In this document: positions 31,090 to 43,246 of the stretch, piece after piece | How positions within the stretch are numbered: the first letter of the stretch is position 1 | How the letters are laid out: each line of letters begins with the position of its first letter | Assembly (NCBI RefSeq): GCF_003148885.1 | Contig: NZ_QGHD01000001.1 | Location: 186,001-250,000, forward strand | Source: Hallerella porci | GTDB lineage: Bacteria > Fibrobacterota > Fibrobacteria > Fibrobacterales > Fibrobacteraceae | Direction: 5' to 3' | DNA length: 64,000 nucleotides | Position numbers and translations under genes: made by a program | Notes under the pieces: model-generated | Told to the model about the DNA's origin: nothing | The model's database searches: none | The model's input: the letters and a program-made list of their open reading frames with translations, nothing else

Positions 31090-31707
31090 ATGAAATTTCA
31101 CTTGGAAACAAAATGCGCAGCGGTGGCGTTGGGAGCCGCTTTAGTATTCGGGCTTTCTGCCTGCGGGAATCCAAACACGATGACAGACAAACGCGACAGC
31201 AAAGTTTACAAGACGGTGAAAATCGGTACCCAAATTTGGATGGCAGAAAATTTGAATTACGCAGGGGATGGCTTCTGTTATGAAGATAATCCTGATAACT
31301 GCAAAAAATGGGGACGGCTTTATACTTGGGATGAGGCACAAAATGCTTGCCCCGAGGGATGGCACTTACCGTCCAAAGCCGAATGGAAAACTTTAATGGA
31401 TGCTGTGGGTGGAGAAGATAAAGCAGGCATTGCCCTCAAGGCGAAAAATGGTTGGAAAGAATACGAAGGAAAGAGTGGTAATGGAACGGACGCCTTTGGC
31501 TTTTCGGCGCTCCCCGCAGGCATCGGCTTCCTCAATGAACGCTACATCGACGCAGACGAGTACGCTATCTTTTGGTCCAGTACCGAGGTCGATAGCGACG
31601 ATATTGTCTACTACATAGACTTGTCCTACTACGTCGAGTCCGCGCGCCAGTACCTCGACATTAAGTACCACGCGTTTTCCGTCCGTTGCCTAGAAAACTC
31701 CAACTAG
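31090..31707 (+). CDS. FISUMP-domain lipoprotein (Fibrobacter succinogenes major paralogous domain)
   Basis: The 205-residue protein has a lipoprotein signal with LSAC and Cys25, then the domain abundant in Fibrobacter: YKTVKIGTQIWMAENLNY, a Cys-containing loop (FCYEDNPDNCKKWG), LYTWDEAQNACPEGWHLPSKAEW, then FSALPAG, FWSSTE and a C-terminal FSVRCLEN. Function is unknown; the fold is thought related to C-type-lectin-like or formylglycine-enzyme-like surface proteins. The third quarter is rich in Asp and Tyr. It stands alone between amtB and a large repeat locus. Confidence 0.92.
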   Translation: MKFHLETKCAAVALGAALVFGLSACGNPNTMTDKRDSKVYKTVKIGTQIWMAENLNYAGDGFCYEDNPDNCKKWGRLYTWDEAQNACPEGWHLPSKAEWKTLMDAVGGEDKAGIALKAKNGWKEYEGKSGNGTDAFGFSALPAGIGFLNERYIDADEYAIFWSSTEVDSDDIVYYIDLSYYVESARQYLDIKYHAFSVRCLENSN

Positions 31708-31728
31708 GGGCGCACAATGCAAGATCTT

Positions 31729-31779
31729 AGAACTTAGATTTTAGAGCTTAGAGTTTCTAAGTTCTAAAATCTAAGTTCT
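31729..31779. repeat. Long near-perfect inverted repeat followed by a C9 tract
   Basis: Two 24-bp arms (31729-31752 and 31756-31779) are complementary with one mismatch around a GTT loop. Each arm is itself built from CTTAGA/TTAGAA-like hexamers. A run of nine C follows at 31781-31789, then the first 42-bp repeat. It could terminate the lipoprotein gene or be part of the repeat element. Confidence 0.75.
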
Positions 31780-31791
31780 TCCCCCCCCCTG

Positions 31792-32041
31792 CGGGAAATT
31801 AGTTCGCCGGATTTTTGGAAATGACATTTCCCGGGGGAAATTAGTTCGCCGGATTTTTGGAAATGACATTTCCCGGGGGAAATTAGTTCGCCGGATTTTT
31901 GGAAATGAGATATCCCAGGGGAAATTTGTCCGCTGAATTTCTGGAAATGACACTTCCCAGGGTAAATATGTTCGCCGGATTTTTGGAAATGACATTTCCT
32001 AGGGGAAATATGTTCACCGGATTTCTGGAAATGAAATTTAT
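31792..32041. repeat. 42-bp tandem repeat array 1
   Basis: Six GGAAATGA anchors occur at 31817, 31859, 31901, 31943, 31985 and 32027, exactly 42 bp apart. A typical unit runs GGAAATGACATTTCC, GGGGGAAATTAGTTCG, CCGGATTTTT. Each unit can form alternative small hairpins (GGAAAT with ATTTCC; ATTTCCC with GGGAAAT). Because 42 is a multiple of three, open frames run through it in both directions, but there is no SD, start context or codon pattern of a real gene. Confidence 0.92.
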
Positions 32042-32257
32042 CTAGCGTTTTTTTTCGCAATGAGAACAGCTAGATCCTTCACTACACTGCGTTTCGTTCA
32101 GGATGACACGCGGGGCATTGCGAAAGGATGACAACCGCCGTGTCATTCTGAGAGGAGTGCGGAGCACGGAACGATATATGAAACTTGGAACTTTAGTTCC
32201 TTAGTTGAATTAAGCCCTTTGGGGTAGAATCTAGCTGTAATTTTCAGCGTTAAAAAA
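32042..32257. repeat. Flank copy F1 between arrays 1 and 2
   Basis: This segment is repeated after array 2 (F2, 32653-32860) with small differences. Shared landmarks are TCTAGCGTTTTTTTT, CAATGAGAACAGCTAGATCC, CAGGATGACACG, GATATATGAAACTTGG, GGAACTTTAGTTCC and GGGTAGAATCTAGC. It contains inverted sequences of the GGATGACA / TGTCATTC type. No coding region is evident. Confidence 0.85.
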
Positions 32258-32652
32258 TTAAAAATGACGTTTCCTAGGGGAAATTTGCCCGCTAGATTTT
32301 TGGAAATGACATTTCCCGGGGGAAATAAGTCCGCCGGATTTTTGGAAATGACATATCCCAGAGGAAATTTGTCCGCTGAATTTCTGGAGATGAGATTTCC
32401 CGGTGGAAATATGTTCGCCGGCTTTCTGGAAATGACATATCCCAGAGGAAATTTGTCCGCTGAATTTCTGGAGATGAGATTTCCCGGTGGAAATATGTTC
32501 GCCGAATTTCTGGAAATGAGATTTCCCAGGGGAAATATGTTCGCCGGCTTTCTGGAAATGACATTTCCCGGAGGAAATTTGTACACCGGATTTCTAGAAA
32601 TGAAATTTCCCGGAGGAAATTTGTTCACCGGATTTCTGGAAATGAGATTTAT
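32258..32652. repeat. 42-bp tandem repeat array 2
   Basis: Ten anchors occur every 42 bp from 32260 to 32638. Units resemble array 1, with variants such as AAATTTGTCCGCTGAATTTC and AAATATGTTCGCCGGCTTTC. Two consecutive two-unit blocks (starting about 32344 and 32428) are nearly identical, showing recent expansion in steps larger than one unit. The first unit is the most diverged (GACGTTTCCTAGG). Confidence 0.92.
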
Positions 32653-32860
32653 CTAGCGTTTTTTTTTTCGCAATGAGAACAGCTAGATCCTTCACTGCGT
32701 TCAGGATGACACGCAGGGCATTGCGAAGGGATGACAAACTCTAAGTCATTCTGAGTGAAGCCGTAGGCGGAGCGATATATGAAACTTGGAACTTTAGTTC
32801 CTTAGTTGAATTAAGTCCTTTGGGGTAGAATCTAGCAGTAATCTTCAGCGTCAAGATAAT
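32653..32860. repeat. Flank copy F2 after array 2
   Basis: Second copy of F1, with the same order of landmarks but a shorter CTTCACTGCGTTCAGG and a changed middle (TCATTCTGAGTGAAGCCG). Together with array 2 it forms a second [array + flank] module. From 32861 to 32994 there is only AT-rich sequence with a small hairpin (AAAATTTC/GAAATTTT) and the MATE promoter region. Confidence 0.85.
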
Positions 32861-32994
32861 GCCCCAAATTTTCAAATGGTGAAATTCTTAATTCAAAATT
32901 TCGAATGAAATTTTCAAAATTGTCCGCTTTAAAACTTCGCGCATAAATCCGTTCCCCCATCCTCATTTTTCTATTTTTGTTTCCGAGGTAACTC

Positions 32995-34422
32995 ATGTTG
33001 GAAGGAATTTATTCGAGAATTTTTCCGGCTCGAATTTTTCAGCGTGGAAAATTAAAAAAGAACGGCGACATGAAGGATGTGCTGATTATTGCACTGCCGA
33101 TGCTCCTTTCTATGTCTTTTGACACGCTGATGACCTTTGTCGATAGGCTTTTCCTTTCAAAGCTTGGACCTGCCGAAATGAATGCGGCTCTCGGTGGCGG
33201 GGGAGTCACGATTGTGCTTTTCTCGCTTTTTACGGGGGCGATTAGTTATACGACGGCGATGGTTTCGCAGCGTCTCGGGGCGAAAAAATATACCGAATGT
33301 GCGCGCATTTTTGTGCAGGCGATTTACTTTTCCCTTTTTTGCGTGCCGTTTTTGCTTCTCACGATTCCGTTCGGGCATTGGATTTTTTCGATGCAGCATT
33401 TGGATGTCGAGCAACTTTCGGCGCAGACGACTTACTTTGATATTTTGATGTTTGGCGGGGTGATTAGTCTGGTTCGCAATGTAGCGCCTTGCTTTTTCAG
33501 CGGAATTGGTGAAACGAAAATTGTGATGAAAGCGGCGTTCGCCGGGATGCTCGTCAATGTCATCTGCAATTATTTTTTGATTTTTGGATTTGGACCGATT
33601 CCGAAATGCGGTGTCGCGGGAGCCGCTTACGGAACTCTCATCGGGAATGCCGTTTCGACGATAATTCTCTTCGCCACTTATTTTGGGAAACGTTACCGCA
33701 ATCGTTTTGGGACGACTCTTTCTTTTGCGCTCAACGGAAAATTGTTAAAAGAATTGCTCCAACGCGGGCTTCCGTCTGGCGTTGAAATGTTCCTCAATAT
33801 GGCGGCGTTCCAACTTTTGATTTTAATGTTTCACGGACTCGGCTCGGTTTCGGCGACGGCTGCGTCCATTATGTTTAACTGGGACATGGTCGCTTACGTT
33901 CCGCTCATCGGTTTAGAAGTGGCGACGACAAGTTTGGTCGGGCGTTATGTGGGCGCAAAAGCGGGGGCGGCAGCGAATCGGGTGACTTATTCGGGATTAA
34001 AAATTGGATGGATGTATTCGGCGTTAATCGGACTTTTGTTTTTATTTTTGCCCGGAGTTCTTGCGGACATTTTCCGCCCCGAAGCCGCTGATGCGACGGC
34101 TGCTTCGCTTTCGATTTTTGATGCGGCGCGTCCTCATGCGATTTTTATGATTCGGCTTGCGATTCTTTACATTATGGTCGAAGTTTTTTTGGTGGTTTAT
34201 GCGGGCGCTCTCCGCGGGGCGGGCGATACGCTTTGGGTCATGTTTGCGAGCGCACTCATGAATTGGGCTGCGGCGATTGCGCTTTATGTGACCGCTTACG
34301 TATTTCAATTTTCGCCCCGTTATGCGTGGGCAGCAATCGTTTGCGTCTATTGCACTGCTCCCATTTTATTCCGATTCCGTTGGAAAAGCGGAAAATGGCG
34401 TAGCAAGGTAATGCTCAAATAA
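32995..34422 (+). CDS. MATE-family multidrug/sodium antiporter
   Basis: The 475-residue protein has about twelve membrane helices in two similar halves. MATE-like stretches include LIIALPMLLSMSFDTLMTFVDRLFLSKLG near 35, MVSQRLGAKKY near 90, GVAGAAYGTLIGN near 205 and SLVGRYVGAKAG near 310. MATE proteins export drugs or metabolites using H+ or Na+ gradients. GAGG lies about eight bases before the ATG; the first 20 residues (IYSRIFPARIFQRGK) are unusual for the family, so an internal start at Met26 is possible. It stands alone after the repeat locus. Confidence 0.88.
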   Translation: MLEGIYSRIFPARIFQRGKLKKNGDMKDVLIIALPMLLSMSFDTLMTFVDRLFLSKLGPAEMNAALGGGGVTIVLFSLFTGAISYTTAMVSQRLGAKKYTECARIFVQAIYFSLFCVPFLLLTIPFGHWIFSMQHLDVEQLSAQTTYFDILMFGGVISLVRNVAPCFFSGIGETKIVMKAAFAGMLVNVICNYFLIFGFGPIPKCGVAGAAYGTLIGNAVSTIILFATYFGKRYRNRFGTTLSFALNGKLLKELLQRGLPSGVEMFLNMAAFQLLILMFHGLGSVSATAASIMFNWDMVAYVPLIGLEVATTSLVGRYVGAKAGAAANRVTYSGLKIGWMYSALIGLLFLFLPGVLADIFRPEAADATAASLSIFDAARPHAIFMIRLAILYIMVEVFLVVYAGALRGAGDTLWVMFASALMNWAAAIALYVTAYVFQFSPRYAWAAIVCVYCTAPILFRFRWKSGKWRSKVMLK

Positions 34423-42814: not shown

Positions 42815-42881
42815 AGGGGAAACGCGAAGTTTTAGAGCGGAAAATTTTTGATGTACTCGTGCGAAGCGCCTCATTTTTGCA

Positions 42882-43170
42882 AAATTTGTCCGTCGGGATT
42901 CCGGAGATACCATTTTGCACGCAAAATTTGTCCGTCGGGATTCCGGAGATAACATTTTACACGCAAAATTTGTCCGTCGGGACTCCGGAGATACCATTTT
43001 GCACGCAAAATTTGTCCGTCGGGACTCCGGAGATAACATTTTACACGCAAAATTTGTTCATCGGAAGTCCGGAGATAACATTTTACATGAAAAATTATTC
43101 CATCGGAACTCCGGAGATAACATTTTACATGAAAAATTATTCCATCGGAACTCCGGAGATGAAATTTTGC
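42882..43170. repeat. 42-bp tandem repeat array 3 (second subfamily)
   Basis: Seven GGAGAT anchors occur at 42903, 42945, 42987, 43029, 43071, 43113 and 43155, exactly 42 bp apart. Typical unit parts are CAAAATTTGTCCGTCGG, GATTCCGGAGATA and ACATTTTACACG. Early units are most alike; the last two carry GAAAAATTATTCCATCGG. Aligned on the GGA anchor, a representative unit agrees with array 2 units at about 29 of 42 positions. Open frames cross it in both directions, but no start context is present. Confidence 0.9.
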
Positions 43171-43180
43171 AAATTTCCGA

Positions 43181-43246
43181 CCACTAACCCCTGCCCACTA
43201 ACCCCTGCCCACTAACCACTAACCCCTGATCACCGACCACTAATTC
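43181..43246. repeat. Short CCACTAACC-type degenerate repeat
   Basis: CCACTAACCCCTG occurs directly after array 3 and recurs with slips (CCCACTAACCCCTG, CCACTAACCCCTG, CCACTAATTCC). It is a low-complexity tract of unknown role between the array and the ilvC promoter. Confidence 0.75.

Follow-up and report, generated by a model that had tools for sequence, protein, structure and literature searches.

Dispersed 42-bp intergenic minisatellite arrays in Hallerella porci and the palindromic core shared by several of their unit families

The window analysed here, a 64,000-nucleotide stretch of the genome of Hallerella porci (contig NZ_QGHD01000001.1, positions 186,001 to 250,000), contains a compound locus of 42-bp tandem repeats that is fairly likely to comprise two copies of a non-coding minisatellite element which is specific to this lineage, lies dispersed between genes, and has spread and diversified there. 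Related arrays are dispersed over the genome, and array loci have been gained in the lineage of H. porci, as the corresponding sites of related species show. Within the databases and genomes searched, the repeat is new in its sequence and in its family structure, a claim that is largely supported, and is similar in kind to the BrickBuilt element of Porphyromonas gingivalis.

The locus lies between a gene with a Fib_succ_major domain (31090-31707) and a gene for a MatE transporter (32995-34422). It begins with an unstranded head module (31722-31779), detected as an inverted repeat, in which the near-perfect hairpin AGAACTTAGATTTTAGAGCTTAGA / TCTAAGTTCTAAAATCTAAGTTCT, with 24-nt arms that are 96% complementary, precedes a run of C; similar sequence also heads the array loci on contigs C13 and C19. 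Array 1 (31793-32039, forward strand) is composed of 5.9 copies of the 42-bp unit of family A and was delimited by TRF with 88% matches, 0% indels and a score of 361. It is followed by flank F1 (32040-32261, unstranded), which belongs to a dispersed compound repeat whose inverted halves, AGGATGACAC / GTGTCATTCTGAG, are REP-like; pieces of this repeat are present at many other loci of the genome. Array 2 (32262-32650, forward strand), with 9.3 copies of the 42-bp family A unit (TRF: 82% matches, 0% indels, score 463), leads in turn into flank F2 (32651-32860, unstranded), a second copy of the compound repeat, and the locus ends with an unstranded tail module (32861-32930) that was read directly from the sequences as a remnant of the 41-bp family D unit (CCCCAAATTTTCAAAYGG...). 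The flanks have 94% identity across an 87-bp core and 85% across about 204 bp; 13-nt arms (ACAGCTAGATCCT / AGAATCTAGCTGT) lie within them, and the ends of the element differ from locus to locus. The sequence-only reading of this DNA had described two 42-bp arrays free of slippage, each followed by a copy of the same flank of about 210 bp, and this description holds: both arrays are far above chance, and the flanks are related. That reading made no mention of a third, diverged array with a related unit, array 3 (42879-43168, forward strand, TRF), in which 6.9 copies of the 42-bp family C unit stand upstream of ilvC. Beside array 3, at 43181-43243, are simple tandem repeats of CCACTAACCCCTGC (14 bp) plus a 21-bp variant, which resemble the text-like repeats that end the array locus on contig C19.

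Searches of the 2.85-Mb draft genome (78 contigs) with queries from the unit families found at least 47 array loci, a count for which units of families other than A also served as queries and matches within 1.2 kb of each other were merged. The copy numbers of these arrays are minimal estimates because three of them touch contig ends (those on C8 and C26, and very nearly that on C15). With array 2 as the query, further arrays were found on about ten other contigs, of which the 15-copy array on C13 was the best match; its identity to array 2 (87%) equals that of array 1 (87%). The copy at C4:5906-6106, which precedes a different array with a period of 41 bp, resembles flank F2 more (95%) than F1 does (85%), and partial copies of F2 elsewhere begin and stop at the same few positions. 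Because F2 and array 2 have relatives on other contigs that are as close as or closer than their neighbours, the duplication in place of a whole module of array and flank, by which the sequence-only reading explained the locus, is unsupported, and it was rejected on the strength of the C4 flank and the C13 array. The compound locus is therefore more readily understood as dispersed modules that have come together.

The same modules recur at loci that have different arrays, so that the loci are mosaics of leader, array and tail. A leader of about 200 bp, which ends in a diverged 42-bp unit, is near-identical before the family A arrays on C7, C8 and C6 and before the family B array on C3; the family D-like tail comes after the arrays on C7, C13, C15, C39, C26 and C50, as it does after F2 in the window; and chimeric joins pass from family E to family A on C15 and from family B to family A on C3. 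About 27 arrays were mapped against genes predicted simply from codon usage, and by raw proportions all but one are between genes or mostly outside them. The exception, a different 42-bp repeat at L069:1208-1401 within an open reading frame of 430 amino acids, is probably coding, and its sequence is unrelated to the intergenic units. Tandem, convergent and divergent gene pairs all host arrays, with no favoured orientation among the arrays sampled. At the outer edges of many array loci (L051, L057, L056, L062 and L060) a short motif like CCTAATTCCTCATTT adjoins the neighbouring gene, as if it marked the boundary of the element.

None of the unit families had a match in the relatives searched (five congeners and other sampled Fibrobacterota); unit A had no match in GTDB r220 with its own species left out. 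A pattern for two palindromic cores in tandem (described below) occurs 69 times in the H. porci genome and 0 times in 167 other Fibrobacterota, the reversed pattern that served as a control giving zero. No comparable set of arrays was found in about 600 kb from congeners (mostly from one species, the nearest congener, G005, being thinly sampled for arrays of its own), in 345 kb from other Fibrobacteraceae or in 355 kb from other members of the phylum; these stretches contain four non-coding arrays, one of which is similar in period (L136, 43 bp, 2.2 copies). One empty site is the RodA-ComF junction, which spans 871 bp in H. porci, including a 15-copy family A array, and is empty in all five congeners (about 100 bp in four of them and about 185 bp in G005). 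Likewise, the MetH-TGT interval of about 370 bp that contains a family H array in H. porci measures less than 40 bp in G005. At neither of these empty sites was a duplicated target seen. The MatE and ilvC genes have no array beside them in the congeners, but these are weaker cases because the upstream gene differs there. Near the MatE gene of congener G001, the same gene that adjoins the 42-bp arrays of the window, there is a 23-bp tandem array of TCGCAATGACAAAGGAGTGGCCA with 5.5 copies (L190:2688-2813).

The units fall into about nine families, labelled A to I, with periods of 41 to 45 bp that are mostly 42 or 43 bp; the period is 41 bp in families B and D and 43 bp in family H. Unselected stretches of the H. 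porci genome, about 800 kb in total, were surveyed by TRF (score of at least 90, unit of at least 15 bp), and every non-coding array detected there has a period of 41 to 45 bp or a multiple of it; about 600 kb from congeners contains no such array. The units were rotated by a common CATTT anchor, and the best offset was sought on both strands and in every rotation. Families A, B, C, E and G then line up in a single phase, at which family C matches family A, although the common phase is partly by construction because of that anchor. The alignment of A with B is strong (z 7.3) and those of A with C, C with E, E with G and C with G are moderate (z 2.9 to 4.0), while A and E are joined only through C and through the chimeric junction on C15. 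Families E and H have one block in common (z 5.7); the placement of D, F, H and I relative to the other families is insecure. Since five families are related and in phase, common descent explains most of the shared period. A period set instead by the mechanism of copying, for instance when a rolling circle or template switching amplifies an intermediate with a fixed length of about 42 nt from unrelated seeds, would suit families D, F and I, which are similar in period with no secure sequence relation to A, but the relatedness and common phase of the other five make it improbable. The sequence-only reading had equated the period with four helical turns, by which each unit would present the same face of the DNA; this holds only approximately, and the periods of 41, 43 and 44-45 bp in sister families show that exact helical phasing is not required.

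Two further explanations of the arrays concern what they might encode or express. Translation into repetitive peptides with a period of 14 residues would fit a 42-bp unit, which is a multiple of three, and some frames of array 2 do stay open. However, all six frames of the family A arrays on C7 and C39 contain stops (the only outcome used from stop counts that were phased by a rough anchor), the periods of families B and D (41 bp) and H (43 bp) are not divisible by three, diversity is even over the codon positions, and there is no Pfam match, so that coding was rejected as next to impossible and the earlier judgement that no credible gene is present here is borne out. That reading had also suggested a transcribed, structured RNA, and an element of transcription or attenuation may be considered with it. 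The RNA of array 2 does fold better than ordinary dinucleotide shuffles (z = -2.9), but shuffles of the unit, in which the repetition is kept, reduce this to z = -1.6 and -0.1 on the two strands; within families there are no compensatory changes, dyad pairing being at chance level (P 0.38 to 1.0); no credible Rfam family was matched; promoter-like and terminator-like sites are no commoner than in shuffled sequences; and the arrays occur in divergent, convergent and tandem gene pairs alike. A structured RNA was rejected on the folding and covariation results, and the wider RNA or attenuation explanation is a poor prospect.

Most likely, the repeat is non-coding DNA that spreads. Array length would change through slippage or unequal recombination, and recombination between dispersed copies, or an enzyme that mobilises them in trans, may create new loci. 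The effect of the arrays on neighbouring genes is probably little beyond spacing, and they would be near-neutral. Against this reading, terminal inverted repeats with a target-site duplication were not established, and no cognate transposase was found in the genome. No flank copy was found beside the single Y1_Tnp gene, which is RAYT-like (C33:2487-2816, in L198), and mobilisation by a RAYT was rejected on this lack of linkage. Also rejected were a plasmid or phage origin, there being no match in plasmid and phage searches, and a CRISPR array, since the units stand head-to-tail without spacers.

Intergenic minisatellites with units of tens of base pairs are familiar as the VNTR/MIRU loci of bacteria and the long tandem repeats of cyanobacteria, from which the H. 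porci arrays differ in that one genome contains many related but distinct families with a common period and a palindromic core. The closest precedent is BrickBuilt, a minisatellite-containing MITE of P. gingivalis with a single family of 23-bp units at about 19 loci, which is restricted to its species, always intergenic and variable in copy number, has a leader and tail that are sometimes partial or missing, and carries terminal inverted repeats common to other MITEs (PMC4596501). Both are imperfect tandem repeats dispersed between the genes of one species only, and both have a leader and tail around the arrays (the leader here being that on C7, C8, C6 and C3). The H. porci units differ in their sequence, their length (41 to 45 bp) and their number of families (about nine), whereas terminal inverted repeats are a feature of BrickBuilt and were not established here, and the F linkers of H. 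porci join different arrays into mosaics. The sequence-only suggestion of a new class of element is largely upheld as to sequence, for which no database match was found within the searches, but not as to architecture, for which BrickBuilt is a precedent (PMC4596501). The flanks resemble GTAG- and CGTC-tagged REPs (PMC3733652) in their imperfect inverted halves (AGGATGACA.../...TGTCATTCTGAG) and in their dispersal between genes, but the arrays consist of long minisatellites in head-to-tail order, and a linked RAYT transposase was not found. The H. porci genome documents a burst in the number of intergenic minisatellite loci within one species, for which sister species provide a record of empty sites, and it warns that such arrays are not single-locus curiosities. 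That several families retain both a common period and a symmetric core makes the origin of bacterial minisatellite periods testable, the candidates being common descent, a copying mechanism and phasing by a protein.

Five families (A, B, C, E and G) have in common the palindromic core ATTTNNCNNGNNAAAT, a 16-bp dyad, and the columns conserved among their consensus sequences are mostly symmetric (ATTT-NN-C-NN-G-NN-AAAT). In a GTDB scan, two cores 40 to 43 bp apart were found on 70 contigs outside H. porci, 43 of which have tandem arrays, among them contigs of Chitinophagales, Parabacteroides, Tannerella, Planctomycetaceae, Treponema and a Lloydbacteria genome; the core is tandemly arrayed, at a period of about 20-21 bp or about 40-43 bp, in Bacteroidota, Planctomycetes, Treponema and others. 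When the spacing was left free between 20 and 50 bp in 12 genomes, all of the matches listed were at 21 or 40-43 bp, although 11 of these genomes had been preselected for the 40-43 bp spacing and only the figure for H. porci (69, the same as with fixed spacing) is free of that choice. Bases that the pattern leaves free are complementary in 54 of 86 cases in array loci versus 15 of 54 in non-array matches (Fisher P = 6e-5, an optimistic value because the pattern was built from the H. porci genome and several loci per genome were counted). This is evidence that palindromy itself matters in such arrays, whether the cause is selection, the binding of a protein or amplification driven by the palindrome. 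Against a near-neutral reading, the conserved core and the cores at spacings of about 21 or 42 bp in other phyla suggest a constraint for which a purely neutral repeat would have no use.

Such a constraint might come from a dimeric DNA-binding protein (nucleoid-associated, segregation or regulatory) for which the arrays serve as binding platforms, each unit presenting the 16-bp dyad about every four helical turns. The dominance of the symmetric set ATTT..C..G..AAAT across five families, the core arrays of other phyla, spaced at about 20-21 bp or 40-43 bp, and the complementarity of the free positions in arrays all speak for a platform, but covariation is absent within families, single-family consensus tests for C, D, E, F, G and I find no significant dyads, the periods of 41, 43 and 44-45 bp break strict helical phasing, and the arrays have no conserved position relative to genes; a binding platform is plausible but on balance unlikely. 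Two other proposals were rejected, namely a pair of significant dyads half a unit apart in every family, which failed for the same six families, and tandem occurrence of the motif AAATTYGTCC in contigs of viruses, where its spacings are spread over the allowed range and look like chance. It is likewise a tentative and rather doubtful extension that arrays of palindromes of about 16 bp (ATTTNNCNNGNNAAAT and its relatives), spaced by two or four helical turns (about 21 or 42 bp), form an undescribed class of intergenic chromosome element with a patchy distribution across phyla (Fibrobacterota, Bacteroidota, Planctomycetes, Spirochaetota and others), in which a dimeric protein would maintain the spacing and which would have burst to about 50 loci in H. 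porci. Beyond the core, the Treponema arrays L294 and L297 align to family E with best scores of 8 and 7, and homology is only suggestive, since 5 of 3000 shuffles reach 7 and many comparisons were made. The recurrence of the same palindrome spacing in unrelated phyla is a concrete lead that can be searched for. In the Planctomycetaceae genome Ct408_bin98, long arrays (L271, L283, L281 and L307) repeat 21-bp perfect palindromes (ATTTGCCATGGCAAAT) every 21 bp and are spread over several contigs. The uncultured Parabacteroides T19 has several different families of 42-bp palindrome-bearing units in one genome (L255, L268 and L295), a situation like that of H. porci.
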